A stretch of 64,000 nt of DNA from Zygnema cylindricum. Its lineage: Eukaryota; Streptophyta; Zygnematophyceae; Zygnematales; Zygnemataceae. Of this stretch, positions 1 to 56,400 are shown in pieces (within the stretch, counting starts at the first letter, position 1; every line of letters begins with the position of its first letter). The stretch covers positions 1-64,000 of the forward strand of contig JBBHKE010002287.1 in assembly GCA_037447655.1 (NCBI GenBank). Direction: 5' to 3'. A program made the translations under genes and the position numbers. The notes beneath the pieces were generated by a model. That model made no database searches. It saw only the letters and a program-made list of their open reading frames with translations, and was not told the DNA's origin.

Positions 1-1190
1 TGTACGCTAATTCCGTCCCGCTTTTTTTTTTATTATTCTCCATTAGTGTAGTTTATTCTATTTTTTTCTTTATTCTATTTAGGGTTATTTTCAATACGTT
101 GTCTTTTAAATAGAGGGGTGTGCGGTCAATGTCAGACCGTACATAAGTGTACCTTTAAATGTACCTTTTTAAGTTAAAAAGTACAATGAATTAGTTTTAG
201 TAACCGCGGACGCACGAGAATGTGCGTTCTAAAAAGGAAAAAAAACCAGGTCCTAAAAAATCCCGCTCGCACATATTCGTCCGACAGCCGCGTTTCGACC
301 GTGTGAATGTACAATTTGTGTACGATTTGTCAGATTTTTTACGGTGACCTATATTAGTGTAAGCATGTTTGCGACCGACATTTTTTTTTTCAAAGATCCA
401 AATAACCGTAACCAAACAATTAGAATGTATGATTTTTTCAAAAAATTTCAAATTCTTAAATAGCGTACACTACCGTAATTATTTTTGTATGCTAAAAAAA
501 TTTACACGCTAGTAACGATTGGAGGTGTAACATACAGTATCGTACTTTAAATTTTTGCGCGTGCGATCCTGTCACATCACGCCACGTTGTCGTGTTCTCA
601 ATATCCGTACACGACACAACGAATCGTAATTAGAGTAAATAACGCTAATTCGGTCGACCTAAATTTTGACTCTATCACGTTAACGAGAGTAAATGATTCA
701 ATTTTTTTCATTTATACTATATGGTCAAGTTTAATTAGCGAAAAAATCCTAATATAGGTTCGTTTTAAATAGTGTGGAGTACAGACAACGTCTGACTGTG
801 CAAAATTGTACTTTTATAAGTAAAAAGGTACAAATAATAATATAATAAAATCGCACTCACATGTGAAATTGCACTAAACAAAAAAAAAATCGCATCGAAA
901 AAAACGCGTTCGCATAGCTCAGTCCGTCGACAACATTCTCGCCTTTTGCATGCGCGCACGATATTCCGCACGCACGCATGATATTGTGCACTTGCGAGCG
1001 ATATTTCGCACGCACCATGTTATTGTGCACGCGCACGCGATATTCAACGCTCTCGCACAAAATCATACACGCACGCACAATTATGTTTGCGCGCTTGCAT
1101 GATTTCCGTTCCCACGTGCAAAGGCACATCGGTTCACTTATCTTTGACGTGTACGCGATTCGCGTATACGTCTATTTGTATATGTACTGA
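1..1190. repeat. AT-rich non-coding block with two diverged direct repeats
   Basis: No gene is recognisable here. Two stretches, about 95-320 and 755-960, resemble each other in order: a TTTTAAATAG start, a cluster of GTAC words (four between about 139 and 193 in the first copy), then a segment around CGTCCGACAG in the first and CAGTCCGTCGAC in the second. This looks like an old tandem duplication or two LTR-like pieces. From 960 to 1120 the sequence is rich in short GCACGC and ATTGTGCAC words. The GTAC clusters recall the copia LTRs further right, but I could not align this block to them. Confidence 0.4.
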
Positions 1191-1194
1191 TTGT

Positions 1195-2010
1195 GTGCGT
1201 ACTATTGTTTCGTTTCGTGCGCAGGTACACAATTTTGGAGTACATACGTGAAGTATCGTTTGGCGATGCAACGCGATATCCAAAATACCATCAACGTTTG
1301 GATGTACCATTTTATATTTAAGTCGCGAACCCATGTCGCTTCGCGCGAACATGTAGTTAGGGAGGGTTTTTACCCTCGGAGGATTGATTATGCGCAACGT
1401 ACGACAGACAATGTTGGCCGCCTATTGGCCAACATTCTAAGTTGTTCCATACATGTAAAGTAGACTAGACGTAGGCTAGTTTCGTTTAGGCCTAGCGTAG
1501 CTTCTACGTAGTCTATTTTCATACTTTGAATTTCTAACTTTTGGACAAGAATTTTCTCTTGGCGACGGAGCTGTTTTCTTGCTTTCTCCTAGCCAACGAT
1601 TGCCCACTATTTCTTTTTCTTCTTGTTAGCTAGCAATAGATGCTAGCTAGCGCACGGATTCTTCTCTCATTGCGTTCGGCCTTGTTTTTAATCCACAGAG
1701 TTCGGCCAAGTCCGGAAGGATTCCCTCCAAATTTTTCTTTTTGGCGATTGTTCGAGTGGAGGCTTATGGCGTGGCATCTTGTATTGGGCTGCGCCGTTCT
1801 CCAAATAGCTGGACGGTTTGTTTAGTGTATTTGTTTGTGTGGCATGTCGGTTATCTTGTAAAAGTCTTTTTTTTTACCGAATCCGAATTTATTGGTTTGG
1901 TTGGAAATTGTTTATTTTGCTTTGTTGCTTTCCTATGAGATAACTCTTGTAAAGAAAACGTTGAAGACCCAAGAGCCTAGTGGCTTACTTGCGGCTTAGT
2001 ATTCTTGTCC
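1195..2010. repeat. Dispersed repeat, copy 1 (matches 40540-41370)
   Basis: This stretch aligns by eye with 40540-41370 in the same orientation. Shared landmarks in order are a TTTTACCCTCGGA word, TTGGCCGCCTATTGG, CTAGCGTAGCTTCTAC against CATAGCGTAGCTTCTAC, TGGACAAGAATTTTCTCTTGG, and an end with GAGCCTAGTGG followed by GGCTTAGTAT. Both copies lack coding capacity. It lies upstream of gypsy element P and could be that element's 5' LTR and leader, with the other copy a solo LTR. This is inference, because no second LTR of P is in the window. Confidence 0.5.
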
Positions 2011-2015
2011 AAAAG
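1538..2015. repeat. Perfect 15-bp inverted repeat around a 450-bp core
   Basis: CTTTTGGACAAGAAT at 1538-1552 is the exact reverse complement of ATTCTTGTCCAAAAG at 2001-2015. Pairing stops at the next base on both sides. The second copy of the surrounding repeat has the left arm (near 40880) but not a matching right arm. Confidence 0.5.
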
Positions 2016-3267
2016 ATAAAAAAAATATATATATATATATCTAAATATATATATTAAATATACAAATTTTATTTAAAAAAAAAATACATTTTGTTTTTGC
2101 TTTCCACTATTTCATTTTTTCAATCTTTGTCTCTTACTCCGCTGCCACTATATTTCTTGGCTTCAGTGTTAAATCTAAATTTTGCATCAAATTTAGGGTT
2201 AATCTGTAGAAATTGGGTTAATCTGCAGAATTAGGGTTTTGGCTGCAGATTTAGGGCTTATTCCTAATTATTCTAATCTTTAGGTCGGTACCCTTCTATT
2301 CTTTGGCTGAATATTTGGAGTTTTGGCCGTCTAAAATTAGGGTTTGGCAGTGGAATTAGGATTATTCAAGTGGAATTAGGGTTTCATGTTGGCTCTAGAT
2401 TACTGTTGTCACAAGTTTGGTTGTATATCTAGAGTTTGAGCGGCCTCCGACTTTATTCTAACAAAATTTTCCAATCTATCGCATTAGAGTTTCTTATTTG
2501 TTATTTGTCTTCCACCAAACATTTTTTTTTTCCTTCCATTGATCCCCTAACATTCCACGGCACGGCAAAGATGGTTTTTTTGGAGACGGTGTTTGGAGCG
2601 AAATTCGTGGAGCGAAATTTCATTCCACGGAGCTCTGCAAAACCCGACTTGCTTCGAACAAGTTCGGTTCACCCTTGATAGTCGATGCCTTGCGGGTGCA
2701 AGAGCGTTCCTATTTAGTGTGGACACTCGTGTAGGGGATCGGTGTGGAGTGGTTCCATCGTGAACCTTTCTTATTGAGCATTTGCATTTTCCTGCTTTCC
2801 CTAAATGCTTTCTCGCCCTAAGTGGCCTTCGATTTGGGTGTGACTATCTGGAGTGGGATTTCTTGCTAGATATTGCAGTGGGTGGCACTGTGTAGACCTT
2901 TTCCTGACTGTGTTGTTGTAGATCTGCACTTAAGGGTGCCGGGATAGCAATTTTCTTATTTTTATACTTCTGGCCCTTTGGCCTTCCGAACTGTTTGCAG
3001 GGTAGAGGTTTTGGTAAACCGACTTCTTGCTAGATATGACCATCGGGTTTTCATAGTGATTGAGTGTGTTGACTGGACGAGTGGATTGGTTTGACAAGTG
3101 TTGCATCTCGGTTAGGTCGTGCGAAACATTTTATTATTGCAGACAGGGTTTCTCCCCTAGTTCATGCCCCTGGATTGGGATAACCTTCCATATCAGTATG
3201 GGTCCACCCGAGGTGGTACATCTTATCGTCCTCAGCAGTTAGATCCTTCGGATTTTTTCCCGAATCG
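2016..3267 (+). other. Non-coding stretch upstream of gypsy P
   Basis: A short (TA)n run lies at about 2028-2041. Between 2180 and 2390 the word TTAGGG and variants (GGGTTAATCTGCAGAATTAGGG-like phrases) recur irregularly; the spacing is too loose for a telomere array. From 2640 the base composition becomes more even. I see no recognisable coding domain before the gag frame at 3268. It is probably element P leader or untranslated gag 5' region. Confidence 0.35.
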
Positions 3268-4330
3268 TTGACCACACCCGATCCGATTGCGGATCGCAAA
3301 TTGCCGTCAGTGCGATCTGGTCTGATATCTACGTCATCATTGTCCTCGGTTTCATCTAGGTCATACCTAGAGGGGACCGAAGAAGACTTTTCGGAGGAAA
3401 CCTTTCCAACTCCTCACACTCGTAATTTCCCTGCCATCCCAGCTTTAGCACAACCGGCGCATCCTCTTCTTTGCGAAATGGCTTCCTCTTTGGAAGGATC
3501 CATGGGTAAGATGCAATCATGCTTTTCCGGATTAAAAGACACCATGTCCTTATCGCATTTCCGGATGTTATACGACACGAAAATGAGAGATATAGCATTT
3601 AGATATCATGGTAGGTTTGACCTCCGTGTCGCCTTTTCCCTTCTCGGTCGATACCTCCGTGGTATGGCCCTCACTTTCTATATTCGGCAGTACGAGGATG
3701 TTGTTGCGATGATAGAGTACATGGCTTCTTTTGCGGGGTTACCTTAAAGTCCTCGGCCAAGTGGATATCCCATATCAGGCTGCAGGACAACGGTATTAGA
3801 TGTTAATGGGGACGAGTTGTATCCAGCTATCTCCGAGGTTCCTCGTCAGTATGCGGTGGCTGCCCGAGCGGCGGTCCCAGCTAGAGCAGGGGGAACCATT
3901 CCTTTACGTAACCCTCTCTCTGTCATGTTTGACATCCTCCAAGAGGAGTACCGGATGCAAAATCCGGATCAAATTAAAGAGTTGATGAACTTCGAGCGTA
4001 GGCCAGGTGAAACTGCCCCAGATTTGCGAGCTTGGATCGAAATTATGCGAGAGGCATTACCAGACCTCAAGTCCGATGCGGAGGCTGTCCAGAAATTTGT
4101 GGGACAGTTTCCAGGTCCATCAAAGATGTTTATCCAAAACCACCTCACCCAGATGTTTGGACTAAAATTCACCTTTGAGCAAGCCGCTCAATACGCGGTA
4201 GAGTATGAGATGCAGACATCGTGGTGGGACGCCATCAGCGTTCCAAAACTCCTCACAGAGAACCGATTAATCCATCTCCTCCTCCACCTAAAAACCCATG
4301 GCCTCCTAATAGGCTCTAAAAGACGTCAGC
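3268..4330 (+). pseudogene. Gypsy P gag (capsid part), frameshifted
   Basis: Two overlapping open stretches, 3268-3747 and 3817-4434, encode a gag-like protein. The first is Ser/Thr-rich at its N-terminus and then has helical sequence typical of capsid (YHGRFDLRVAFSLLGRYLRG). The second contains IPLRNPLSVMFDILQEEYRM, which matches the gag of element N on the other strand (TPCTTFFNILRLLYTERN, near 17500). A frameshift near 3747-3817 separates the two. The protein would assemble the retroelement particle. No host function is implied. Confidence 0.7.
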
Positions 4331-4331
4331 C

Positions 4332-4946
4332 ATGGGAACTCTACCTGTTAGTTCCGGAAACCGAATGTGTTTCGGATGTGGAAAAACCGGGCACGATGCC
4401 CGCATGTGTCTTGACATTATTGCCCGCACGATGACCACAGAGTCAATCCTCGGAATCACAAAAGACCCGCTCATCTTTTGGTTTCAGTTAGGAATCGAAA
4501 ATGAGTCCGTTGAAATTGCTGTCAGAGCATTGGTCATTGAATGTGACGACTATGAGTGTTTAGTGGGTCAAGACGTTATATTTCGAATTGGCGGTGGCGT
4601 GGACATGCACGACCAAACATTCTCTTACCGACCGACACACTTTTTGGAGCGCAAAATCTGCCTCCCTCTCATTTCAGCCCGCCGACCTATACCCACTATG
4701 GCTCACTCGGCTACGGCTCTTCCTGCATTTTTGGGGAACTCCGTTGGGGAGGAAATTTTCCACTCTGTTTCGGCCAAGAAAATCATACTAGATAGTTCCC
4801 CCTTACCCGAGCTTTTTGCGGAACTAGGTTTTCTAATCAATTCACACACATTTGACAATATTTATAAGTCCTCGTTATCTATTCCATTGACACGTATCCC
4901 TCTTATAGCTACAATTGCAACTAATCCTTCGGGTTTCCTTCCGTAA
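4332..4946 (+). pseudogene. Gypsy P nucleocapsid zinc knuckle and protease tail
   Basis: The frame starts with a complete CCHC knuckle, CFGCGKTGHDARMC (CX2CX4HX4C), the RNA-binding motif of retroviral-type nucleocapsid. About 50 residues later comes ALVIECDDYECLVGQDVIF, which matches the C-terminal strand of retropepsins (the usual LLGxDxL). The catalytic DTG/DSG stretch expected between them is not visible, so the protease core is probably deleted or lost by frameshift. The next domain, the methyltransferase, begins within 10 bases of the stop in another frame. Confidence 0.65.
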
Positions 4947-4949
4947 GTT

Positions 4950-5930
4950 GGAATCCTGTACAGCTAAGTCCTCATACGGACGGGGTCGTTATTTTAGATC
5001 TATTCGCTAGGATTGGAACTTCACTATTGTCATGTTCGCGGAATGGTCTCCTCATCCGTCACTACTATGCATTAGAAATTGATGCGTTAGCTAGAAAAGC
5101 ACAATTACACCATTGTAATCTCTTGCATTCACAATTTTCACAGTTGTTTTCGACGTCAGCCTTTTTACACATGCACACTGCTCTACCACAACACAATTCC
5201 ATCTTTAGTAATCATCATCTACGGGGTGTCGAACCGATAGACCTTGTTTTCGGAAGGTGGGAGTGTCAAGGCATTTCTCGGGACGGCAAAGGTCTTGGTT
5301 TGGCGGATCCCCGTACCAAATTGTTTTTTGAGCTTTAGAGGGTCATTCATTTTCTTCATACCATGGCCAAGCATGTCAGATACATTTTAGAGAAAGTCCT
5401 CGCTTATAATGATCCTCGGCCTACAGTTGTGGCTGACTATAAGCGCATAGAACACTTTATCGGACCTCGCTAATTATTGATGCTGCTCGGCATGGGTCCT
5501 TGGCACATCGGGTTTGCTCTAAATAAACAAAACTATTAAATGTTGGTCGTCTTCGTGAGGCTAATTTGTTTTTAAAACATCCCACTACAGACATTACGAT
5601 CGCTTTGCTTCCCTTTCACCAAGTCGAATCATGTTTCCAAACTGACTACTCTCCGAATTACAACATTAATGTACCTGGCCAACCCCTCAAGGTCCTTTCT
5701 ACTTTAGTGTCTTACCCTAATTCCCATTCATACTCTTGTAGCGGTCCAGGCATGCTCTGGATTAATGTCATTGGAGAGTTAGAGGAGCCTACGGCCACAG
5801 AACAGAAGCATCTCATGCATTTAATTCGAGGCACTACTGCGGCCCCCGGCCTTACAGATAAACAACATTCCACTTTGTTGGGTAGGGTCATCAATCCTCA
5901 GTCTTTATCATTTCTCATAGGTCTCAGCCT
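4950..5930 (+). pseudogene. Retrotransposon-encoded cytosine-5 DNA methyltransferase domain (P copy)
   Basis: The conserved C5-MTase motifs appear in canonical order. Motif I (S-adenosylmethionine binding): ILDLFARIGTSLL at about 4991-5029. Motif II acid: ALEIDALARKA. Motif IV: DLVFGRWECQGISRDGKGLG, with the catalytic Cys codon at 5264-5266. Motif VI: YILEKV near 5381-5398 (canonical ENV, so Asn is lost). Motif VIII region: IIDAARHGSLAHR near 5475-5513. Motif IX-like: STLVSYPNSHSY. Motif X-like: TTAAPGLT followed by LLGRVIN near 5878. A stop at 5336-5338 and a frameshift near 5466 break it. The family transfers methyl groups to cytosine C5 in DNA. Position between protease and RT, in line with both, shows it is part of the pol polyprotein. 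Activity is unlikely in this copy. Confidence 0.87.
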
Positions 5931-6233
5931 TGCACCTGGTCGCTACGCACAAAATCAACCCGTGCAACCAGCTGGGGAGGGGAATGCGGCGGCTCCTTCA
6001 CGTCATGTTTCCTCTCGCACCTCTCCTAGTCTTAAAAGAAATCCGTTTCAGTTTTTTCTTTTCCCTTCTCTCACACCTACGGTTAAGGACATCTCTATCT
6101 ATGATTTCCTCAACCCGAGTCATATATCTTGGGAAATCTCGGCCCATAGAGTCGTTCAATCCACAATTTCATCGTTTTTCGGTCGGCACCGCACTGGATA
6201 GCTGCACTTCGGACGCGTAGCTGGCACCACTAG

Positions 6234-7540
6234 GTGAACTGCCTACAGCAGACCCCGATAAAATACGAGTTAGGCCACTCACTCATCGTCGGCGAGAAAA
6301 TTGCATTTGCTCAAGCCATGGAAGCTTTCACTATCAAGAGTTTTGAGACGCCCAAGTGGAAGTTCGTTTCCAGTCTCACAAAGGCGGAACATGCACTATT
6401 AAATGACATGGTAACCCTCTATATAGATGCGTTTGCTTTCTCCATGAATGACCTTCAACGTCATTCTACTTACAAAATGTCAATCGACCTTGAAGATGAT
6501 CGACCTATCTTTAAGCCGAAACACCGTCTCTCCGAATTGGAATGGGAGATGGTGGACAAAAGATACGCAGAATTGGAAAAAACCGGTCTAATCTATCGGT
6601 CGGATTCCACCTTTGCCGCCCCCACAGTCATGCCTAAGAATAAAGATTCCGACGGAAATTTTACCGAGCGAAGAATGTTTTGGGACTACCGAGAGCTCAA
6701 TGCACATACTGTTCAAGATCGCCACCCTATGCCTCTAGCGGAGGAAATATTTGACTATGTAGGTGGTGCGAAGTTCTTTACCATTCTTGACTTACGTCAA
6801 GGGTTTAACCAGATTGAAATCGAGGAAAGAGACAGGCATAAAACTGCATTTTGGGGTAGTCATGGACGGTGGGAATGGGCAGTCATGCCTTTCGGTCTTA
6901 AGAACGCACCCGGCGTGTTTCAAAAGTCATGGATTTGGTGCTGGGTGGATGTAAATTTGCTTGGTGCTACATCGATGACTTGATAATCACTTCTGCCATG
7001 GTTGAGGAGCACGCCCACCATATTGAGTGGGTCCTCACCGAGTTAAAGAAAGTTAGGCTGAAGTGTCACCTAGCCAAGTGTACTTTCGGTGCGGAGGAAG
7101 TGCCCTATCTCGACCATTTTATTTCGGCTGGGTCATCACTCCCTTGGAAGCTAAGGTAGAGGCGATCACCAAACTGTCGACTCCCACCGATCTCACTAGT
7201 CTGAGGGCTTTCCTCAGACTAGCCAATTATTACCGTCGTTTTGTACTAAATTTTATATGATTAGTTCTCCCCTCAATGACCTTCTCAAAAAAGAAGTGTA
7301 TTTTGTTTGGGGACCCGCCCAAATAGAAGCTTTTCAAAAACTGAAAGCCACCCTTTCCAGCGCTCCCATTCTTCGACCTCCTAACCGCAAGCTTCCCTTT
7401 TGCCTACAAACCGATTTCGAGAAGCCACGCATTGCGGCTATTTTAACGCAAAGAGTTAAATGGAGAGTAATACGTAGTGGAATACGCCAACCCTTGTGAT
7501 TTACCGTTCCCACCCACTGAAAGAACTCTTGGGTGTAGAA
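6234..7540 (+). pseudogene. Gypsy P reverse transcriptase and start of RNase H
   Basis: The RT domain is clear: a KPKHRLSELEWEMVDKRYAE entry, a LIYRSDSTFAAPTVMPKNK strand, RRMFWDYRELN, FTILDLRQGFNQIEIEE, VMPFGLKNAPGVFQ, and the catalytic YIDDLII (about 6970). A frameshift near 6940 separates the palm halves. Connection sequence AFLRLANYYRRFV (about 7208) is typical of gypsy RT. RNase H begins with the CLQTDF strand and a VEYA...PPTER segment near 7470-7525, then ends at the junction with element N. Several frame changes (6983, 7159, 7260, 7499) show decay. Confidence 0.85.
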
Positions 7541-7639
7541 TTTTTCTCCTCTCTCTCCCCCCCTCAAGCTGCAAAGTTGCTTGCATGGACAAAAATTTAG
7601 GAGCTTGAAGGTAACTTCTGCGTGAATCTGGAGAATGGA

Positions 7640-8559
7640 GACTGGCATAGGCAAGAGCGTGTTTTGTAACCCATGTACTGGCGTTCAAATCCATGCTCTG
7701 ACCTATTAAGTTGCACCATTGTGGGTTTGAAATACCTGGTGCGGCCGTGGTTCCCGGATGGAATACCATGACGTTTTCTCGTTCCGAAATGTTTGGTGCC
7801 GTCCAAATTCCGGCCTTGCTGTCAAAAATTATCCCAACCGCTCCTTTCCGGTAGGCGTGACTGTGGGGAAAAGAGACCAACGTGGGTACGGCGCGGCGTG
7901 AATATCCTGGTGTATTGCATCGGAAGAAAGGAGTATGATCCGGTTTTGTTACAAGTGTTGCCATTCTCCCTTCCCCAAGTATCTGCTGTACTTAAATCTG
8001 ATGGTCAGGGGTCTGCTTTTCCAACAGTTGCCAGAGAACCTGAAGCGGGATCATATTGGTCCAATATGCCCGGAGTCTGTGTGCTTGGGATCCCATCTGA
8101 GCAGTGTCAAAAACCAAGGGAGCTCCTAAAATTTGGGTTACCTGTTTCCAGCTCTTTGCAACTTGCTTCCGTTTATCATCTCCGGGTGGACATTTTCCAG
8201 GATGTACCCCACTGGTGTGTCGTGGAGCTACTGGATCCACGATATTAATGTAATCATCTGATAGAATGTGCCACTCCTGCGGTCCTGATGCCCTTTTCGT
8301 TGTCTTGCTATGGAGTATCCCTAACAAAGCCAACCAGCCACCACAAGATCTACTTTGCCCAGACTAGCTAAATGAGGGGGCATAATGTTATCCACATTCT
8401 GGGGAAGACTCCGGTGAGCTTTGGAAATTGAAGTCACTGGAAGCTGTTGAGGATATAAACGGTACAGTTGATGAAGGCGGTGTTCGGTGACAGCTCGTGC
8501 CTCTGGTGAAATTTCCATCGATGTATATGACTCCACCCGATATCCTGATTTAAAAAGTG
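7640..8559 (-). pseudogene. C5 DNA methyltransferase, motifs II-X (N copy, distal part)
   Basis: On the minus strand the frame runs GYRVESY..EISPEARAV (motif II), then VDLVVAGWLC (motif IV, Cys codon complement of 8324-8326) followed by a TAG stop where Gln is expected, and YILENV with an intact motif VI ENV (complement of 8189-8197). Next come FDTAQMGSQAHRLRAYWTN (motif VIII region, about 8060-8120), PTLVSFPHSHAY (about 7850-7890), HPGTTAAPGIS and LIGQSMDLN (motif X, about 7675-7710). It aligns collinearly with the P copy through all motifs. Three or more frame breaks make it inactive. Motif I lies on the other side of copia C1 at 14770-14815. Confidence 0.87.
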
Positions 8560-8713
8560 CTTCTTGTTGAAAAGAGGTAATTAATAGTTCACTTCCCTAT
8601 TTTAGTTTTGTTTTAAAAAAAGAGAAAGAGGATCAAAGGCGCGCCATGGCTGCCGCCATATTTAGAAAGTGGCAGATTTTGAAGTAAAGGGTATTTTACT
8701 AAAATGATGTTTA

Positions 8714-8782
8714 GGTCTAGATTTGAACCTGCACACTCTAGATTCTCTATAGCCTAACGCCTTAACCATTAAGGCGCTACGA
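8714..8782 (-). promoter_or_regulatory. tRNA-like A-box/B-box module, antisense in the C1 5' LTR
   Basis: On the minus strand TAGCGCCTTAATGGTTAAGGC (complement of 8759-8779) resembles a tRNA D-arm and A box, and GGTTCAAATC (complement of 8720-8729) matches the B box. The spacing of about 30 bases is tRNA-like. The 3' LTR has the same at about 14033-14102. Equivalent modules occur in the other copia LTRs, always opposite to the element's direction. Confidence 0.55.
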
Positions 8783-9069
8783 AACGATACATTTGATAGG
8801 TTTCATAAACATATAAATATTAACGCAACAGCTAATTAACAGCAGACTAACAAAAAAGAGCAATTCCTGCATGTACGCGAATCTGAACCGTGTAAAATAT
8901 GTTTTAATCGAACGGTCGGCATTATAGCCGCCAAGCGAAGTGAGCTTTTGGCGGCATACGGAAATAGCGTCACGCGGTGCCACGTGGCTACACATTTTTT
9001 GATATCGGAGAAGATGGGAGGAGGAACCATGGCTTTCGATTTGACAAGTGTCACCTTGTAGACCTTGTC

Positions 9070-9107
9070 GTACAATGGTTGTACAATAAGTACATCGCCC
9101 ATTGTAC
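9070..9107. promoter_or_regulatory. GTAC cluster in C1 5' LTR
   Basis: Four GTAC words at 9070, 9081, 9090 and 9104, against an expectation of about 0.15 by chance. CGTACAA agrees with the core bound by plant SBP-domain factors (GTAC). The cluster lies about 115 bp upstream of the TATA box, as a U3 enhancer would. Confidence 0.5.
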
Positions 9108-9221
9108 TTTCTTATACTATATAGTGTTCCTATTGGACTAGGGTTTAGTAGTAGGTAGTCGTGAGTAGGCAGACGAAGACTTTGTAATATTTAGGTACCT
9201 CTCTCTAAGAGAGCTTGTAAC

Positions 9222-9241
9222 TATAAAGGTCATCTTTGACC
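9222..9241 (+). promoter_or_regulatory. TATA box and adjoining palindrome, C1 5' LTR
   Basis: TATAAAGG leads directly into GGTCATCTTTGACC, a palindrome of GGTCA and TGACC arms. The same pair is present in the 3' LTR and, with changed bases, in the other copia LTRs. It is the probable core promoter of the element. Confidence 0.6.
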
Positions 9242-9431
9242 AGCAATAACTTACTGCTCAGGGGAGCAAATTCAGTGTTTTTTTTTGCGTTTGACTCAAA
9301 GGAGTCTTGTCCTCACAAGGGTGAGGGTGGTTAGAACATCTGTGTGCCTGGGTGGCACTTATTCAGTGGGAAAGTGGAAGGGGCAAATATTATCCTAAAG
9401 ACTTTACATAGGTTGCTCATTCTTTGGGTCA

Positions 9432-10540
9432 ATGGAGACCACAGAATTTCAGGTTATGGGCCCACCCTCTAGGGTGCCTATATTTGATGGATCATAATTT
9501 TTGTATTGGGAAATGATGATGGAGGGAGAACTATTTGAGAAGCATCTATGGAGCATAATGTCTAGACAAATTCGATGCCCACCTCCACCTGGGTTTGGAG
9601 GGACACATTCTTCTGGCACCTCTGCCTCTACAGTTGGTAGAACAACTGCCACCATCACTAAGGATGAAGATGAGGAAGGAGAGGAGATTGTCATGGAAGG
9701 AGAAAAGGAAGGAGTTGCAACTCAAGTGACACCTTTCCCGAAGGCGATATCGGTAGCGGCACCACCAAAAACGACGACAAGGGTTCAGACCGAAAGATCA
9801 GAGTTTAAAAAGTGGAACTACAAAGACAAGGTTGCTAAGCTCTTAATTCTTAAAAGTATAGCAAAAGGCATTGCCATTCCCCTTATGCATGTCAAATCTT
9901 CATCTCAGATTTGGATATCACTAGTTAACAAATATAAGAGTGGATCATTGCACCAACAACAGTTGGCCGAAAATAAGATTGCAGCTTATACCTTTAAAAG
10001 AGGAAGTATGAATAATTATTGCAATGATTTATGAGCATTATTTGGAGAGTTAGAGAGTCCAGGTAACTCATGGTCCGAGAGACAAAGAGTGAACACATAA
10101 ATGATGAAACTACCAGAAGAGTATGAGAATATCATTAACCGATTGCAGGACATGGGAGGTAGCAATTGGAATTGGGATGACACAGTGGGAATGATTTTAG
10201 TGAAAGAAAACACCATAGAGCTTAGGAGAGGGAGTCCAAGTGTTCAAGCATTGTCTGCAGGAGCTGATTGGCGGAAGCGTGATGAGGAGAAAGGGAAAGA
10301 TCCCTATCGAAACTTTGGTGGAAGAGGACAAAGAGGTGGCAAATTTCGATAAACAGGGGAGAGGAACTTCTCAAGGAGGATTATATCACTTCTCCAAGAA
10401 ACCGGGACACTACATGGCAGATTGTGTCAAACTTGCAGATTTTCGACTGAAAGATGGTCAAGGAACCTCAAAGGATGGAGGAAAGAAAAAGGCTTTCTTG
10501 ACTCAAGTTCATTGATGAGGAAGTGGAAGGAAAAACTGAA
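9432..10540 (+). pseudogene. C1 gag
   Basis: The frame opens at the LTR-borne ATG (9432): METTEFQ, then VMGPPSRVPIFDG encoded across the primer site. The body matches the copia gag of this window (LFEKHLW, then GFGG, and a capsid with SGSLHQQQLAENKI, MNNYCNDL and LPEEYENIINRLQ). The zinc knuckle at 10384-10425 reads Y-H-F-S-KKPG-H-YMAD-C: the first two Cys of CCHC are changed to Tyr and Ser, so it could not bind zinc. Stops at about 10032 and 10098 and a frameshift near 10350 also break it. Confidence 0.85.
9452..9466 (+). other. Primer-binding site of C1 (initiator tRNA-Met anticodon arm)
   Basis: GGTTATGGGCCCACC begins directly after the LTR terminal CA. Its complement GGTGGGCCCATAACC is the anticodon stem-loop of plant initiator tRNA-Met (anticodon CAT). 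There is no match to a tRNA 3' end (no TGG start). This implies a cleaved 5'-half tRNA primer, as known for Drosophila copia. The site is also coding, since gag frame reads V-M-G-P-P through it. Confidence 0.85.
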
Positions 10541-13500
10541 CCACAAAAGGAGCTTGAGGAGCTTCTTCTTAATCCGAAAAATAATGAAAAGCATGTCGAC
10601 ATTCCACGGAGACAAAAGTGTGCTTTCAAAGGTAATAGGGATCCACCCGAGGATGGGTGGATAATAGACTCAGGGGCTTTAATGCATATGTGCAAAGATA
10701 ATTGGTGGTTTACTAAACTGAGAAAGATCCCAACAGTTGAGATAGAGTACGGGGATGGTAAAGTAGAAACCACAAGTCTTGTTGGAACTGTTGACTTAAA
10801 GGTTCTAGTTGATGGAAAGGCCTCAATTGTAACACTCTCAAACGTTCTTTACATTCCATAGCTTAGCAAGAACCTAGTCTCAATAACTGTCCTTGATGAA
10901 AAGGAGTTTGAAACAAGAACTAGGAAAGGAATCTTCAAAACAAGCTTTGATAATAAGGTTTATTTCATAGCTGAGAAGGGCAGTCAAGGAATGTTCAGAA
11001 TTGTTCTTTGCAATGAAAAGAGTGTTCTCTACTCGTGTGCAAGCAAGATGATGCTTTGGCATAAAAGGTTGGGGCATGTGCATCTAGATAGAGTAAAGAA
11101 AATGAAGAAAAAAGGAATAGTGGAGGGTATTAATTTTGAGGATGATGAGACCGCTGATGATTGTAGTGGATGTGCCCAAGGGAAGATTCATAAACTTCCA
11201 TTTCCAAAGGCATCCACATTTAGGAGAGAGAAAGTATTAGATCTAGTTCACACTAATGTTTGGGGACCTGCTAGGTATGCTTCACATAGGGGGAAGAGAT
11301 GGATGTTAACCATCACAGATGATTGATCTAGATACACGAAGGTATACTTTCTCAGACATAAGCCAGAGGTATAAAGATGTTCCAAAGAGTATAAAGTATG
11401 GAGTGAAAAACTACATGAAACCTCAATAAAAGAGATAAGAAGTGATAATGGGAAAGAATACACCTCAAGGGAATTTGAGGAATATCTTAAAGAAGAAGGA
11501 ATTCATCATGAGAAAACTGTTCCCTATGATCCGGAACAAAATGGAGTAGCAGAAAGGGGGAATAAAACTTTAGGAGATATGTCCAGAAGTATGTTAACTG
11601 ATAAGAGGATAGGGTTGCAGTTTTGGGCGGAGTCTATGAACTATGCTAATTTCATCAAAAATATAGTCATAACATCAACAAATACGGAGGAAACTCCGTA
11701 TGAGAGGTGGACAAGAAGAAAACCTAATTTGTCTAGTTTGAGAGTGTTCAGAAAGTGAAGTCTACAGTTCGGATTCCGATAAGACTAAATGGAAGTTAGA
11801 GGGGAGAGGGAAGCCAGAATATCTTGTAGGATATGATGAGAGCACAAAAGGATACTTGTGTATGACTTGAAAAAGAGAGATATAACTTTGGTAAAACACA
11901 TAGTGGTGATGAATGAAGAGAAGTCCATTGATCCATTCAAATATAATAAGGATGTCAAAATCAGACTTGAAACGGATCAGTTTTCTGACTTTGACTTTGA
12001 AAATGAAGAGAAGGAAGAGGGAGAAAAAGAAAAATCTGCAGATCTACCAAAGGAGAAGGAGGAAAGGACAACATCCGAGGCAACGCCACAATACAAAGTG
12101 GAAACCGATGAGGAACTTGATGAGACACCGGAATTAGAATATAGGGGAGCTGAAAATCTCCCTAAACAAAACCCAAGGATGCCTTCCATACCGGCGTCCG
12201 ATTTTGAAGGGGGAAGAAGAAGTAGTAAATGACTTCAAGAAAGACAAGTAAATAACCAACTCACAAAGATGTCTCACCCAGATGAACCTCAAACATACTT
12301 AGAGGCCATAAACACTCCAGAAACTAGCCGGTGGATCACAGCTATAAATGAAGAAATGACCTCTATCATGGAAGCCAATACATAGGAGCTGGTAGATTGT
12401 CCACCGGACCGAAAACCGATTGGATGTAAGTGGGTTTTTAAACTTAAATTAAACCCGGATAATACCATTGAGAGGTACAAAGCTAGGTTAGTTGCAAAAG
12501 GTTATACTCAGAAAGACGGGATAGACTACGAAGAAACCTTTGCACCTGTAGTCAAATTTCCTTCTATTAGAATCCTTTTAAGTATAGCCGCAGCGGAGGA
12601 TATGGAAATCCACCATATGGATATTAAAATGGCCTTTTTGCACGGAGAGTTAGAAAGAAGAAATTTACATGAGGCAACAATAAGGATTCGTGGAAAGTGG
12701 GGAAGAAAATAAAGTTTGCAAACTGATGAAATCACTCTCTGGGCTTAAGCAAGCCCCGCGATAGTGAAACATAAAACTAGACGAATTTCTGACAGGTTTG
12801 AGGTATATCAGAATTAGTTCAGATCACTCTATATATTTATTTGAGGATGAGAGTGGAGTGATATTTATTGCTTTTTATGTGGATGATTTGTTGGTCTTAA
12901 GCAAGTCCTTAGATAAAATTAACAAACTAAAACGGGATCTTAGAAGCAGTTTTGATATAAAAGATCTCGGCGAAGCAAAGTACATTTTGGGAATGCAGAT
13001 GGAAAGACATAGAGGGAATAGAATTATAAGACTCACTCAAAGAAGCAATCGGTAATATGCTAGAAAAATTTCAGATGGAAAAAGCAAACGGATGTACTAC
13101 TCCTATGGATTTGAAGAAACTGTATGAGGGGAGTGAAGAGAGAGAAATATTGATCATTAATGATAAGATGGATGGGATACAAAAACAATTTAGAGAAAAT
13201 ATCTCTTATCGGCAGGTTATAGGCAGTTTAATTTATTTTATGAACTGTACCCGTCCGGATATAGCTTGAGCTGTAGGTGTCTTTAGTAGAAATCTAAATG
13301 AACCAAGAAAGAGAGACTGAGAGGCTGCCAAAAGGGTGATGAGGTATCTGGTGGGGACAAGGGAATTAGGGTTGCATTTGGGAGGGGAGCACACTGACAT
13401 CACCACTTGGAGTGATGCCAGTTATGGAGATGTGCCTTTAAGGAGGTGTACGACTGGATATGTGTTGCAAATTGGATCTGGTGCATGTTGTTGGAGTAGC

Positions 13501-13874
13501 AAGCAACAAAAAGTAGTTGCTCAGTCCACTATGGAGGCTGAATACATGGCTTCTTGTGCTGCCACCAAAGAATTAATGTGGGTTAAATCTCTTCTTGAAG
13601 AACTTGGGTTCATGAAGACAGGAACTCAGAATGTTTTTTGTGATAATCAAGCTGCTATCTCTATTGCAGCTAATCCGAAACATCACTTCAAAGCTAACCA
13701 TATGGATATTAGATTAAGCTTTGTCAAAGAGAAGGTAGAAAATAAAATTATTAAACTGGTTCATAAAACTAATTGAGAAATGATTGCAGACATGATGACA
13801 AAAGAAGTGCCTTCCCCTAAGTTCATTTATTGCAGAGAAAACTGTTGATTAAAATTGAAAAGTGACTAGGAATT
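10541..13874 (+). pseudogene. C1 pol: protease, integrase, RT, RNase H
   Basis: Protease active site DSGA is at 10668-10679. Integrase shows the HHCC finger (WHKRLGHVHL near 11058; CSGCAQGK near 11166), first Asp in DLVHTN, and NGVAERGN for the catalytic Glu region. RT includes [13 protein letters not shown] and YVDD at 12876-12887. RNase H has TWSDASYGD near 13405 and STMEAEYMA near 13528. Stops sit mainly at conserved Trp and Gln positions: TGA 11324 (Trp), TAG 12383 (Trp), TAG-TGA 12762-12767 (Gln-Trp), TGA 13317 (Trp). The frame was originally one with gag. Confidence 0.88.
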
Positions 13875-13882
13875 AAGGGGAG
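13875..13882 (+). other. Polypurine tract of C1
   Basis: AAGGGGAG directly before the 3' LTR start. The same tract, usually AATAAGGGGAG, precedes every copia 3' LTR in the window and primes plus-strand synthesis. Confidence 0.8.
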
Positions 13883-14768
13883 TGTTGAAAAGAGGTAATT
13901 AATAGTTCACTTCCCTATTTTAGTTTTGCTTTAAAGAAAGAGAGTGAGGATCAAAGGCGCGCCATGGCTGCCGCCATATTTAGAAAGTGGCAGATTTTGA
14001 AGTAAAGGGTATTTTACTAAAATAATGCATAGGTCTAGATTTGAACCTGCACCCTCTAGATTCTCTATAGCCTAACGCCTTAACCATTTAGACGCTACGC
14101 AACGATACACGTGACAAGTTTCATAAACATATTAATATTAACGCAACAACTAATTAACAACAGACTAACCAAAAAGAGCAATTCCTGCATGTACGCGAAT
14201 CTGAACAGTGTAAAACATGTTTTTATCGAACGATCGGCATTATAGCCGCCACGCGAAGTGAGCTTTTGGCGGCATACGGAGATAGCGTCACGCGGTGCCA
14301 TGTGGCGCCACATTAATTGATACCGGAGAAGATGGGAGGAGGAACCATGGCTTCTAATTTAAAAGGTGTCACCTTGTAGACCTTGTCGTACAACGGTCGT
14401 ACAATAAGTACATCGCCCACTGTACCTTCTTATACTGTATAGTGTTTCTTTTGGACTAGGGTTTAGTAGTAGGTAGTCGTGAGTAGGCCGACGAAGACTT
14501 TGTAATATTTAGGTACCTCTCTCTAAGAGAGCTTGTAACTATATAGGTCATCTTTGACCAGCTATAACTTGCTTCTCAGGGGAGAAAATTCAGTGATTCT
14601 TTTTGCGTTTGACTCAAGGGAGTCTTGTCCTCACAAGGGTGAGGGTGGTCAGATTATTTGTGTGCATGGTGGCACTTATTCATTGGGAAAGTGGAAGGGA
14701 CAAATATTATCCCAGATGCTTTACATAGGCTGCTCAATCTGAAGGTCAATGGAGACCACAAAATTTCA
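13883..14768 (+). repeat. 3' LTR of copia C1
   Basis: Matches 8565-9451 over its whole length, including the terminal ATGGAGACCACAAAATTTCA. That fixes the LTR end downstream of the gag start codon and shows the ATG is LTR-encoded. Confidence 0.9.
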
Positions 14769-14967
14769 CTTATAAGTCGGAACTAATTCTTGAAAATAAA
14801 GATGAAATCCGAAGTCCGGTGTCAGGGATTGTCAATGACACCAGTTGTCGATTAAAGTCCTCGTTATCAGTCTTGGTTTGGAAAACATTTGACCTGGTTT
14901 TCGAATCTGTTTTCGGTAAATATAAGGCCGAGAATGCCTGATCTACTCCCCGTCGGAGTTTTGTCAC
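14769..14967 (-). pseudogene. C5 DNA methyltransferase, motif I part (N copy, proximal)
   Basis: The minus-strand frame 14967-14770 ends in GLRISSLFSRISSDL, matching the SAM-binding motif I (LFxGIG) and the P copy's LDLFARIGTSLL; Arg replaces the first Gly. The frame reaches the C1 insertion point and continues at 8559 with the motif II segment. Upstream on the same strand lies the protease, so the protease-then-MTase order equals that of element P. Confidence 0.8.
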
Positions 14968-15930
14968 TTGTAATAATCTATTTCTGTATTCCGTTTCCCA
15001 CCACTTGGAAATCAGGAATTGCTAGATGTCCTCTGGGATATCTATTGAACTGTCAAACAGCTTCGCAGGACAGGAAGTGGAATACACTGGGTAACGGCCA
15101 GACAGAGGAACATTAGTCTTTCCCCGGTTCCATAAATCCAAAGGAACCACAACTTTGGTTCTTTCGGGATTTCCGAGGTCCCGAAGAGTACATTGCTCTT
15201 TCCAAACACTTAAACTCATATTCATCCGGGTCCAAGTAGCCATTCCCAACAGGATTTCAAATTGATTCCCTTCTACCACTAAGAAAGGAAATTCAATTTT
15301 CACCCTGTGTCCAGTATCTCGGAGAATTCAATGTTCATGGCTTTGATGATTCCATGGACTGGCTGACTGCCGCTGCTTACTGTGCTCAAGCAGATGTTAC
15401 TTGGGCAGATTTGGGGTCTGAGTTCTTAAGGCATTTTTCTGCAACGCAGAAGTGATAATAAGGTTGTGAAGTGCTCGGATGTGTACCATAGTGTCCTGGT
15501 ACCCGCCGTACCCGTTAAGTTTGAAATTAACTGTCCGGTTCAAAATGAGAGCCACGGACAAGGTTTTGTAGTCCCCTTCCACCATAGGGGTATTAGGATC
15601 TGAAGACAAATATAGCGTTGTGGGTGTTGTTACCCTGTCGACTTTATCTTTTCCGGAATGGATCTCTTCTCCCACGGCCTGAATGAGGATATCTTTTGGC
15701 AGATTATGGGAGGAGGCAAGGGTCTTGACATGGGTCAGGGTATACGCCATAAGTTGCCGAACTAGCATGACAGCAGGCTTGGAGGAAGGGAGTGGAGCTC
15801 TCGGCGGTGATTTCGGCGAATCTGGTTCCTGATCCTGTTCATTCCCTTCCTTTTCATCACCCTCAGAACAAAAATCGGGCATTGGTGGAGTTTGGGGTGC
15901 TTTCTCATCCGGGCGTTCGGCCATGAATCG
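14968..15930 (-). pseudogene. Gypsy N protease region and acidic/proline linker
   Basis: The minus frame 15303-15022 contains FPFLVVEGNQFEILLGMATW, the closing strand of a retropepsin (LLGM). Frame 15924-15397 starts Pro/Glu-rich (PDEKAPQTPPMPDF) and then has a beta-rich stretch before the protease. The active-site triad is not clean: near 15380 a sequence that could derive from D-S-G-A-A is shifted out of frame. The segment sits between zinc knuckle and MTase. Confidence 0.65.
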
Positions 15931-17667
15931 CTCAAACTAATCTGTCCTCTTCCAATGATTTCTTCTCCCGCTGTTGTTTCTCACTTTGGTAATTTTCGAA
16001 ACCGGGAGGCAGTCTAGCTTTGGGAGGAAGAGGAGGAGGATGAGTGGGCTTGATTCCGAGGCCTATGTCGCTGTTAAGCGTCACTACCCTTGGCGTGAAA
16101 GATAAAGGCCCGGTGGCCTTCCGATTGTGGTCTTTCTAGCTCATTTTCTGCCTGTCTCTCCTCTGATCCGAGGTGGAGGAGCGGAGTTGTTTACGACCAT
16201 CTCTCATTCCCACATTCCACTCTCCGTGCAGGATGTTGGTTGCATGGTGGGCATTTAGGGGTTCCAAATCCCAGCCCATCAAATCATTGTCGTTAGCACC
16301 CGCTATGCTTTGAAATTCAAGCTGCGCTAAATTCTGTAGCAACTCCTGTTTTTGTCTTTGGAGTCATTGCTCTGCTGTAAGAGTAGTAGGGTGGGAAGAC
16401 GATACCAAACGAAGTGCAACCAATTCCGTAGCCATGGCGGGCATCTGCTGACTTTGGTGTTGGATTATAATCTCATGTGTAAGTCTTGTTGGAACACCCG
16501 ATGCTCGTTACGGAGTTTCTGGTGTAGGCAACATTGGGCGCCCCCAAGGGTAAAGAAGTTGTAGAGGAAGAGGGTTCACGGCGGTCTCTCTTCCTCGCGT
16601 CAACAGAGCGAATTGCATCATTTCCTTTGGAATCGCGTTCTTCCGGAAACATTGCCCCTCCTTGTGCCCCAGGAATCCACAGGCCTCGCACTTGTGGCAC
16701 TCGGTGGTATACTTGCTCCGGATCTCGTTGGAGATATGGGCGTCGTCAAACTTTGGCAGTTTGATTTACCTCAGTTGAGACTGGGACATTTTCGAAGTTC
16801 CACTTTGACAGTGGGGCGGTAATTGTCCTTTATCACCTGTGTTCTCTCCCCCCCCCCAGCTTCTTTGAGCCATTCTTGCTGCTGCTTCTGGCTTCTTTCT
16901 AAACGCTCTACTTCCCATTCCTTCAGCTTGAGGGCTAGCTCCGATTTGAGTTTTATGCTGCAGCATTTCCATCCATGTCCTGGTTGTTGACAATTTAGTC
17001 AATTGTACACAATTACCTGATCGTCTGCCCCCATTGCAGGTTCAGGCCCGCCGTCCGCATTTTGCTTCCCTTTAAGCTTGTGAAAAGCTTGAAGTTCCGC
17101 TTGTTCTTCCCCACTTAAGGAAGTTTCCCCAACGAACTTGCAAAATTCGCTCAGGCCTTGCCTATTACGGCCTTTTCCCTTGCCTCACTGTGAACGAAGT
17201 GGTCGTATAACTTCATTGCCACCAGTAAGATGTCCTTGGCAGAGGGATTTATGTCATGAATTGCTTGTCAGACAATCTAATTATCCAAGGTAGTCCGCCT
17301 TGTTGGTCCGAAGGAATTACAAACAACAATAAAATACTTTGTGGCCATTAGAAGTAAGTCAATGAATGACAGCTTGGTTTTTTGGCAAAGGCTTGAAAGA
17401 CAGTTGAAGAGAGTCTGGGGAGTCTCATTTTTGAAACATCGGAATTTTGTGAATTCTTTGATTGCCGATTGGTTCCTCTCAGTGTAGAGGAGTCTCAAGA
17501 TATTAAAAAAGGTAGTGCAAGGGGTGGGGTTGGCCACCATGCGTGTTGCTTCCCGAGCTGCCTGAATGGCTTGCACCTGGTTGACATAGGCCCTTCCTTG
17601 GGCCAGGAGCTTCATATCATCAGTGAAGGTGGCTGTCACAGGTGTGGCCGCCGCAGTAGCCAAGTCA
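15931..17667 (-). pseudogene. Gypsy N gag C-terminal half with two zinc knuckles
   Basis: From 17663 downward the frame encodes capsid (TPCTTFFNILRLLYTERN, near 17500), homologous to P gag. A first knuckle near 16990 reads NCQQPGHGWKCC, with its first Cys replaced by a TGA stop. A second, near 16665-16710, is complete: CEACGFLGHKEGQC. A spacer rich in Gln and Pro leads to the protease. Frame breaks occur near 17277, 17000, 16700 and 16470. The 17663 start is not a true start, since copia C2 interrupts gag at 17668 and the frame resumes at 24125. A run of ten C lies near 16847. Confidence 0.75.
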
Positions 17668-17758
17668 TCCTCTGTAGAAATTAATGGTCCATTTAAAGTA
17701 TTTTCTAGGTCTAAATAGAAATATAGAAAGTAGCCGAGGTAGTCTACCTCTAACTTCT

Positions 17759-17803
17759 CTCTCCAACTCTCAAACTTGTCGCAGTCACTGAGAAATTGGA
17801 GAG
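17759..17803 (+). other. Fixed-loop hairpin, C2 5' LTR
   Basis: Arms CTCTCCAACTCTC and GAGAAATTGGAGAG pair with one bulge around the 18-base loop AAACTTGTCGCAGTCACT. The 3' LTR copy is at 23152-23196. Other families keep the loop but not the stem sequence. Confidence 0.65.
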
Positions 17804-17897
17804 GGAGCTAAAGCCATGGCTACCTAGGCTATCCAGAAGTTTACGAGAAATATATATGAGTTAGGGGTTTATTTACTAAAAGGTATGTGCCGACCAC

Positions 17898-17963
17898 AAG
17901 ATTTGATCCTGGTACCTACCGGCCAGCAGACAGTCAGTAGCCGGTAGCCTTAGCCGTTAAGTC
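17898..17963 (-). promoter_or_regulatory. tRNA-like module, antisense in the C2 5' LTR
   Basis: The minus strand carries AACGGCTAAGGCTACCGG (D-arm and A-box-like) and, about 30 bases on, CCAGGATCAAATC (T-arm and B-box-like, B box complement of 17900-17909). The 3' LTR copy is at about 23293-23362. Confidence 0.55.
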
Positions 17964-18343
17964 TTTTACTAGTGTAATGTACTATAGGGTTTTATTTTTA
18001 ATTAAACATTATCAAGTAGGAGAGTTTATTTAACTCTAACAGTTTACGGGAGACATAGATCCAGTAATCTAAAAGTACGGATTACAGTACGGATAAGAAA
18101 CGAATACCGCGCATTTATTCCTTTAGCGAAACAAATACCGCGCATTTATTTATTACGGCTACGATTAAATATGAATTTAATCAAATGGCCGGATTTAACG
18201 TCGAGATAGCGGAAGAGGATTTCGGCGGTTTGTGGTCATCGCCACATCGGATGACACGTGGCGGAATTACATTCGACCGCGGCATCTCCGAGGATTACGC
18301 GAGCGAATTCGGAAATTCCACGTGGCGACATTTAGGCCATGTC

Positions 18344-18418
18344 GTACAGTATCTGTACAAAAAGTACACCGGCAGCTGTACTTTTGTGTATAGAACTGTT
18401 ATCTGATTGGCTCCGTAC
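18344..18418. promoter_or_regulatory. GTAC cluster in C2 5' LTR
   Basis: GTAC at 18344, 18355, 18364, 18378 and 18415. The middle three form an imperfect inverted repeat, TGTACAAAAAGTAC against GTACTTTTGTGTA. In the 3' LTR, TCCGTACAA agrees with the SBP-domain consensus TNCGTACAA. Confidence 0.5.
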
Positions 18419-18496
18419 ATCACTAGATAGAGTCTGTGAGAGAGATAGGACTTAGAAAAATTAGGAGATAGGACCCTCTCTCCTAGTGAGTTTCTG

Positions 18497-18517
18497 TATA
18501 AAAGGTCAACTTTGACC
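18497..18517 (+). promoter_or_regulatory. TATA box and palindrome, C2 5' LTR
   Basis: TATAAAAGG followed without gap by GGTCAACTTTGACC. This is the likely transcription start region of the element. Confidence 0.65.
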
Positions 18518-18707
18518 CTCCATAACTTACTGCTCAGGTTAGAAATTTCAGAGATTCTTTTTGCCATCGACTCAAGGGAGTCTTGCCTTCACAGGGGTGA
18601 AGTTGATCAGTGTTATTGTTTGCCAGGATGGCATTTGTTTTTTCTGAAACACAAAGGGGTCAGGATTATCGTAGAGGCTTCTTGAAAGCTATCCACTCTG
18701 AGGACTT

Positions 18708-19640
18708 ATGGAGGTCTCACAGTTTCACGTTATGGGCCCACCCTCTAGAGTACCAATCTTTAATGGAACTAGCTTCATATACCGGGAAAGTATGATGATA
18801 GGAGCTCTATGCGAAAAAAGGTTTTTGGGGGATAGTGAGTGGACGGTTGGGGCGTCCATCAAGTCTTGGAATTCCTCCAGGGTTTGGAGGAAGCACATTC
18901 ACCAAGAAAGAGGATCCAACTTCAACGGAGGAAATAAAGGAAGGAGAGCTGGTGGACAAAGGAAAGGAGAAGGAGGCGACCACACTAATAGCAACTGGTT
19001 TGGCATTCATGTCACGTATTCCGAGAAGAATGATACTGAAACATGGAACTTCAACAAAATGGCGGAAAGGCACTTCATCCTACGCCATCTCACTCAAGGA
19101 CTTGGATGTCCTCATTTGCAGGTAGAAAGGGCATCCGATCTTTGGATGGCTCTCATAGAGAGGTACCGAAGTGGTACGATTCAGCAACAACAGTTGGCTG
19201 ATCAGAAAGTTAAGGAGTATGTATACAAAGGGGGAAATATGTTGGATTTTTGCAATGAGCTTGCTACATTCTTCATGGAGCTACAGAGTGTGGGGAAAGA
19301 TTTTAGTGAAAAAGAAAAAGTTAACTATTTACTGATGAAGTTACCCGATGAGTTCGAGAACATAGTCAACCGTGTGCAGGACTTGCCGGAAAAAGGTGGA
19401 TATGGAACTCAGTGGTAGGGATGATTCTCGTTCTGGAGAATATGATTGAGATCTGAAGGAGAGGAAAGAGTGGCAAAGCCTTGGCAACTGCGACCAATTG
19501 GAGGAACAAGGATTCCCGGAAACCGGTCTGAAACTATGGAGGGGGGGAGCACAAAAAACAGAATGACGAGTTCAGACCAAGGGCTCCCAAAGGTTTATGC
19601 CATTTTTGTAAGAAACCTGGGCACTATATGGCAGAGTGCA
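18708..19640 (+). pseudogene. C2 gag
   Basis: Opens at the LTR ATG: MEVSQFH, then VMGPPSRVPIFNGTSF through the primer site. The capsid includes SGTIQQQQLADQKVKEYVYK, MLDFCNELATFFMELQS and LPDEFENIVNRVQDLP. The zinc knuckle CHFCKKPGHYMAEC (19598-19639) is complete. Small frame shifts near 18830 and 19400-19450 interrupt it. It binds and packages element RNA in the virus-like particle. Confidence 0.88.
18728..18742 (+). other. Primer-binding site of C2
   Basis: CGTTATGGGCCCACC: 14 of 15 bases match the C1 site, and the stretch from 18729 is complementary to the initiator tRNA-Met anticodon arm ending at base C39. The mismatched first base would fit a primer ending at nucleotide 39, the length known for Drosophila copia. 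Confidence 0.8.
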
Positions 19641-22600: not shown

Positions 22601-23057
22601 CAGTTATGGTGATGCTCCGATGAAGAGATGCACTTCTGGATATGTATTATATGTGGGTGATGGGGCTTGCTGTTGGAGTAGCAAACAGCAAAAAGTTATT
22701 GCTCAGTCCACCATGGAGGCTGAGTATATGGCCTCTTGCTCTGCTGTAAAAGAATTGATGTGGGTTAAGTCTTTGCTTGGTGAGCTTGGTCACCTTAAGA
22801 GTGTTGTGCAAATTTTTTTTTTTGATAATTAGGCACCAATCGCTATTTCTGCCAATCCTAAACATCATTTTAAAGCCAAACACATGGACATTAGACTCAG
22901 CTTTGTTACAAAAGAAAGTAGAAAACAAAATAATCAGTTTAGAGTACCGACAAGATAGTGAGATGGTAGCAAATATGATGACCAAACCTGTGCCTTCCCC
23001 TAAGCTAATTTTCTGCAGGGAGAAGTGTGGTCTGAAATTAAAGATTGACTAGAAAAT
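19628..23057 (+). pseudogene. C2 pol: protease, integrase, RT, RNase H
   Basis: Open from 19628 for 368 codons: protease DSGA (19859-19870), integrase HHCC finger (MWHKRLGHVNL near 20250; CSGCAQGK near 20360), DDE core with SDNGGEY near 20638. Then RT with YVDD at 22056-22067, and RNase H with TWSDASYGD and STMEAEYMA. Breaks are few: TAG at 20732 (Gln), TAG near 20818 (Trp), a frameshift near 21640-21730, TAG near 21945 (Trp), TAG at 22512, TAG at 22830 (Gln). The polypurine tract AAGGGGAG is at 23058-23065. Confidence 0.9.
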
Positions 23058-23065
23058 AAGGGGAG

Positions 23066-56169: not shown

Positions 56170-56400
56170 TTTCAGTCTCAAAGCAGCGCAGCTGCTTTAC
56201 AGACAAAGCAGCGCAGCTGCTATACAGACAAAGCAGCGCAGCTGCTATACAACATAGCAGCGCAGCTGCTATACAACAGAGCAGCTGCTATACAGCAGAG
56301 CAGCTGCTATACAGCAGAGCAGCTGCTATATAGCAGAGCAGCTGCTATACAGCAGAGCAGCAGCTATACAGCAGAGCAACGCAGCAGCAGAGCAACGCAG
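56170..56400 (+). repeat. GCAGCTGC tandem array in copia D LTR
   Basis: Units such as AGCAGCGCAGCTGCTATACA (about 20-26 bp), each holding the 8-bp palindrome GCAGCTGC, repeat about nine times and shorten towards the right. Similar words occur in LTRs S1 and S2. Confidence 0.8.

Follow-up and report, generated by a model that had tools for sequence, protein, structure and literature searches.

Remains of a DNMT3-like cytosine-5 methyltransferase in a decayed Ty3/gypsy element and in a diverged second element beside it, probable relics of an old capture

Introduction

Hosts silence transposons by cytosine methylation, and an element equipped with a methyltransferase turns this weapon around. 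Methyltransferase-bearing retrotransposons are a rare combination of a kind that is already in print for one green alga and for dinoflagellates. In the literature searches made for this work, a single primary paper, PMC5890265, reported such elements. It describes KnitGypsy-Dnmt3, a Gypsy element of Klebsormidium nitens with a DNMT3 in its Pol ORF, as well as the DIRS-Dnmt3 and LINE-Dnmt elements of Symbiodinium. When expressed in yeast, two SymbioDIRS-Dnmt3 domains methylated CG, and KnitGypsy-Dnmt3 gave no methylation, a result that the authors call inconclusive; for the DIRS elements, the proposal is that an element methylates its cDNA within the particle (PMC5890265). LTR Copia elements and DIRS elements are also named as carriers of DNMT3 in PMC12344493, which cites the 2018 paper PMC5890265. 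True DNMT3 has been found across plants except angiosperms (PMC6453930), and many green hosts could therefore have donated one.

Here, we describe a stretch of DNA of 64,000 nucleotides (the window) that holds two decayed methyltransferases, one in a Ty3/gypsy element on the plus strand and one in a second element on the minus strand. An initial annotation had placed a cytosine-5 methyltransferase between the protease and the reverse transcriptase (RT) of a Ty3/gypsy element, pointing to reports of such enzymes captured by retrotransposons in some algae and protists. The precedent is real (PMC5890265), and the placement is supported and further strengthened by the second, diverged element, in which a protease is likewise followed by a methyltransferase. 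Family copies lacking the domain had been named there as a possible refutation; within the 64,000-nucleotide window, one further element turned up, and it carries the domain. The coordinates of all parts are collected in Table 1.

Table 1. Parts of the two methyltransferase-bearing elements, and the copia element inserted in the second, in window positions
Feature	Position	Strand	Basis or remark
Gag-like stretch	3748..4319	+	Position and look only, ahead of the zinc knuckle
Zinc knuckle (CFGCGKTGHDARMC) and protease remnant	4320..4946	+	ORF; zf-CCHC E 0.71, below cut-off
Decayed methyltransferase, putatively DNMT3-type, cytosine-5	about 4988-5934	+	PF00145; collinearity with the minus copy; joint-profile PDB match
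Motif I (DLFARIG)	4997-5017	+	Plus methyltransferase
EID	5075-5092	+	Plus methyltransferase
Catalytic-loop Cys codon	5264-5266	+	Within WECQGIS, 5258-5278
Motif VI-like ILEKV	5381-5398	+	Plus methyltransferase
Motif VIII-like AHR	5479-5511	+	Plus methyltransferase
Motif X-like LLGR	5875-5895	+	Plus methyltransferase
Reverse transcriptase, Ty3-like, frame-broken	6234..7159	+	PF00078 E 2e-12 and 1.7e-8, two ORFs
RNase H	7200..7499	+	PF17919 E 2.5e-11; cut off near 7499
Decayed methyltransferase of the minus element, from the end of motif I through motif X	7650..8564	-	tblastn with the plus copy; PF00145, TIGR00675
Copia element	8565..14768	+	Interrupts motif I of the minus-strand enzyme
Remaining part of the minus-strand enzyme and preceding stretch	14773..15021	-	Contains motif I (SSLFSRISSDL, 14805-14773)
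Protease remnant of the minus element	15022..15327	-	BLASTP E 9e-4 to plus ORF 4320-4946
Zinc knuckle (CEACGFLGHKEGQC) of the minus element	ORF 16508..16765	-	CX2CX4HX4C pattern, read by eye

The plus-strand element

Protease, methyltransferase, RT and RNase H follow one another on the plus strand, all on the one strand and in frames that are now broken. The RT ORF 6234-6983 matched Ty3 RT (4ol8, E 5.2e-23), Ty3 Gag-Pol (2.7e-22) and a protein entered as 'Enzymatic polyprotein' (1.2e-20); HIV-1 RT trailed by a wide margin (0.0015). By these matches, the RT is to be classed as closest to Ty3, not to copia or to the retroviruses. Two ORFs, 3184-3747 and 3748-4434, stand upstream of the zinc knuckle; since neither has a Pfam gag match, the gag of the element is assigned by place and look. 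At the other end, the absence of an integrase match in the 10 ORFs scanned with Pfam and of a flanking repeat pair (LTRs) around the element makes it look truncated near 7499.

A repeat of about 690 bases at 1316-2002, roughly 1.2 kb ahead of the gag-like region, is 69% identical to 40656-41344. This pair may be the LTR or leader of the plus-element family, or an unrelated repeat. The copy at 1316-2002 was considered as an LTR of the plus element itself and set aside, there being no second copy downstream.

The methyltransferase motifs, named I, IV, VI, VIII and X after the C5-methyltransferase scheme, lie where the initial annotation had put them, with the catalytic Cys codon at exactly 5264-5266. 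The catalytic Cys of motif IV, the Glu of motif VI and an AHR-like motif VIII come in the right order in both copies. In the plus copy, Glu replaces the Pro of motif IV and Lys replaces the Asn of motif VI. In-frame stops and a shift of frame near 5470 show that this copy is dead and cannot work.

Other parts of the annotation came through less completely. It had named PF00145 as the model that should match; this matches both ORF 4925-5338 (E 0.0022, 17.9 bits, in the Pfam scan of 10 ORFs) and the plus fragment read with X at stops (E 5.3e-4, 20.0 bits), but each time under the 22-bit cut-off. It had also claimed a zinc knuckle and a protease upstream, and neither rises above the Pfam cut-off; the protease is recognised only by way of the second element, in one pairwise BLASTP comparison with the minus-strand ORF 15022-15327 (E 9e-4). 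TIGR00675 scored 16.5 bits with the plus copy, far under that model's 100.65.

On its own, the plus copy thus makes a modest case. Searched alone with phmmer, ORF 4925-5338 found no methyltransferase in the PDB. With tblastn against 50,697 phage records, it drew 274 records when E values of up to 10 were admitted; among the 20 matches listed (top E 8e-6), 18 carry an annotation as DNA methylase or methyltransferase and two carry none. Pattern scans for prokaryote and viral relatives gave 12, 46 and 110 matches in viral contigs and 87 in genome contigs, none of which was confirmed by tblastn.

The minus-strand element

A second methyltransferase adjoins the end of the plus element on the opposite strand. 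Pieces of the plus copy, used as tblastn queries, matched the minus strand at 8551-8255 (E 4e-9) and 7940-7650 (E 7e-15), and the motifs GWLC, YILENV and AHRLRAYWTN can be read there. This copy too is dead. Three of its ORF pieces have no Pfam match when taken singly. The two methyltransferase fragments both match PF00145 (best E 1.5e-5, with motif I of the minus copy left out) and TIGR00675 (best E 2.1e-8). In the minus copy, it is Leu that replaces the Pro next to the catalytic Cys. The loss of this Pro from both copies is most simply explained by decay, with a feature of the family as the alternative.

The copia element that interrupts motif I has LTRs that are 92.0% identical over 887 aligned columns, and its flanks, CTTCT and CTTAT, are a target-site duplication of five bases, one of which differs. 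Once this element and one copy of the target site are removed, the flanks join in a single open frame (...IPDTGLRISSLFSRISSDL-EALFKSGYRVESYTSMEI...); four junction boundaries were tried, and only one joins both frames without a stop. The rejoined motif I stands in register with that of the plus copy. Because an open frame runs across the rejoined flanks, the minus-strand sequence beyond the copia element belongs to the same element. The insertion also sets a lower bound on the age of the minus element.

Beyond the copia element, six ORFs of the minus element, those of the protease and zinc knuckle included, have no Pfam match. Protease and methyltransferase follow each other in the same order as in the plus element. 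An RT was not seen in the minus element, and the full order of protease, methyltransferase and RT is thus seen once only.

This second element also bears on whether the methyltransferase belongs to the plus element at all. The region is packed with nested elements, and the frame of the plus copy changes between methyltransferase and RT, as might be expected if a host or bacterial fragment had landed among gypsy pieces through nested insertion. However, a repeat search of positions 1-14000 found no repeat or insertion boundary around 4950-5950, the methyltransferase of the second, diverged element comes immediately behind a protease remnant akin to that of the plus element, and the enzymes of both elements align collinearly. 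We consider a foreign fragment hardly credible; chance nested insertion is rejected on account of the same order in the second, diverged element.

Comparison of the two enzymes and affinity to DNMT3

The two methyltransferases can be aligned end to end and are collinear over 322 columns, with 27% identity. Identical residues occupy 45 of 95 columns in the motif windows versus 41 of 210 outside them; the windows were picked after the alignment had been viewed, and the small p-value of this comparison is descriptive only.

To judge from its matches in the PDB, a joint profile of the two copies makes the methyltransferase homology of both clear. DNMT3 proteins come first (DNMT3C at E 6e-7, DNMT3A from 1.4e-6, DNMT3B from 4.4e-5), followed by HhaI (from 2.4e-4), DNMT2 (1.7e-3) and HaeIII (0.01). 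More distant are 4onj, entered as 'DNA methyltransferase' and which we take to be a DRM (0.12), and DRM2 (1.5). The PDB contains structures of DNMT1 and CMT, and no entry so named occurs among the 48 PDB sequences within E 10 of the profile. The ranking is unchanged when motif I of the minus copy is left out (DNMT3C at 1.6e-6), and a reversed-profile control drew three sequences, none of them a methyltransferase, with a best E value of 1.3. The C-terminal halves alone found no methyltransferase in the PDB. An AlphaFold prediction of the N-terminal half from the two sequences had a mean pLDDT of 32.9, too low for use. As a matter of profile ranking rather than of a tree, the enzymes are thus placed closer to DNMT3 than to DNMT1/CMT, DNMT2, DRM or the bacterial enzymes.

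The same ranking speaks to the substrate. The presence of DNMT2 among the matches (E 1.7e-3) would suit an enzyme acting on RNA, either the element's genome or a tRNA primer, as would the Klebsormidium gypsy enzyme's inconclusive failure to methylate DNA in yeast (PMC5890265). DNMT3C nevertheless outscores DNMT2, at 32.2 versus 20.8 bits, and we regard an RNA substrate as very unlikely.

In both copies, the second residue ahead of the Cys is Trp, a position occupied by Ser in DNMT3C, and both contain the blocks TLVS(Y/F)P(N/H)SH and GTTAAPG. These common features favour one capture. Were two gypsy lineages to have taken in DNMT3-type enzymes independently at the same site, an identity of mere 27% would be natural, and repeated capture by different element classes has been published (PMC5890265). 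Against this stand the shared Trp, absent from the printed DNMT3 alignments, the two common blocks and the relatedness of the proteases, and we hold independent capture to be unlikely. A single capture before the two lineages split, with long use of the enzyme afterwards, is the likely course of events.

The surrounding window

In a separate scan of 10 ORFs, copia-type domains were found in seven, and the copia elements are nested. Together with a GC content of 42%, this suggests a repeat-rich genome, which we guess to be that of a plant other than Klebsormidium. A search of Rfam at the gathering threshold and a tRNA scan gave no pointer to the host. Further related copia-type elements, partly decayed and on both strands, occupy 17673-24117 and 42400-64000 (RVT_2, Retrotran_gag_2, rve and others), and short tandem arrays of CAGCGCAGCA-like units lie inside the copia-rich part at 49067-49209 and 56179-56404. 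Inverted and direct repeats that are 82-88% identical pair 28496-29108 with 36717-37345 and 29709-30213 with 35711-36145, with more distant copies at 26599-27600. Two long open frames without a Pfam match, 24305-26009 on the minus strand and 32035-32490 on the plus strand, have in common a related stretch (24180-24904 versus 31725-32429, 66% identity) and are perhaps the gag of another element family.

The observed/expected ratio of CpG is 0.73 in the window, 0.75 in the plus methyltransferase, 0.66 in the minus methyltransferase and 0.53 in the copia element at 8565-14768. CpG loss is mild and is not special to the methyltransferase.

Origin and possible role

We are highly confident of what the window holds: remains of methyltransferases, the position of one of them within the plus element, the order of protease and methyltransferase in the second element, and an affinity to DNMT3 over other C5-methyltransferases. 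Beyond this, we think it reasonably probable that both copies are relics of a Ty3/gypsy lineage whose DNMT3-type enzyme was taken into Pol between protease and RT and kept while the lineage diversified. The capture of this enzyme into the gypsy Pol, between protease and RT, would have preceded the parting of the two lineages. That relics so deeply diverged lie next to each other suggests long retention of the enzyme, which is unlikely for a useless passenger.

Since neither copy in the window can work today, any role of the enzyme belongs to the ancestors. In these, we tentatively propose, the enzyme may have been made within Gag-Pol and packed into the particle. There it could, again tentatively, have methylated the CG sites of the element's own cDNA. 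A new copy might then have entered the nucleus already marked, to pass as host DNA or to settle quietly, a step that we put forward with equal reserve.

The domain might instead have served silence rather than stealth: methylation of its own or rival copies would lower transposition and harm to the host, and so keep the element in the population. This is offered as one option in section 11 of PMC5890265, whereas nothing in the window bears on it, with a CpG ratio of 0.75 in the plus methyltransferase against 0.73 in the window and no special loss; we judge it unlikely.

Returning to one old capture, it is possible, if short of probable, that a single uptake of DNMT3 by a gypsy clade preceded the divergence of at least two deep lineages (their enzymes being 27% identical), and that this clade lived on in a large genome packed with repeats, not that of Klebsormidium but possibly that of a land plant. 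If this is true, carrying a methyltransferase of its own is an old and widespread strategy and not the oddity of one alga. Should intact relatives exist in the same genome, the job of the enzyme becomes testable.

Comparison with known systems

DRM, the rearranged plant DNMT3, is a distant match of the joint profile (DRM2 at E 1.5, 4onj at 0.12), and its motif order is rearranged, unlike the I, IV, VI, VIII, X of the window. Plant and animal DNMT3 share with the window enzymes a canonical, unrearranged motif order, and the best profile match among solved structures is an animal DNMT3. The window enzymes differ in lying within a retrotransposon and in having CQG, not CND, from the motif IV Cys onward. 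Plant DNMT3 has a C-terminal DUF3444 (PMC6453930), where the window methyltransferase is followed by an RT.

Among the retrotransposons, SymbioDIRS-Dnmt3 likewise has a DNMT3-type domain inside Pol, but it is a DIRS element with a tyrosine recombinase (PMC5890265), whereas the RT in the window is Ty3-like and no recombinase occurs among the ORFs scanned. KnitGypsy-Dnmt3 differs in that its published copies are under purifying selection and its repeats are DIRS-like (PMC5890265), whereas both copies in the window are dead and no repeat pair was found around the window element. Compared by description only, KnitGypsy-Dnmt3 is like the window element in being a Ty3/gypsy element with a DNMT3-type enzyme in Pol, the canonical motif order and several copies per genome (PMC5890265).
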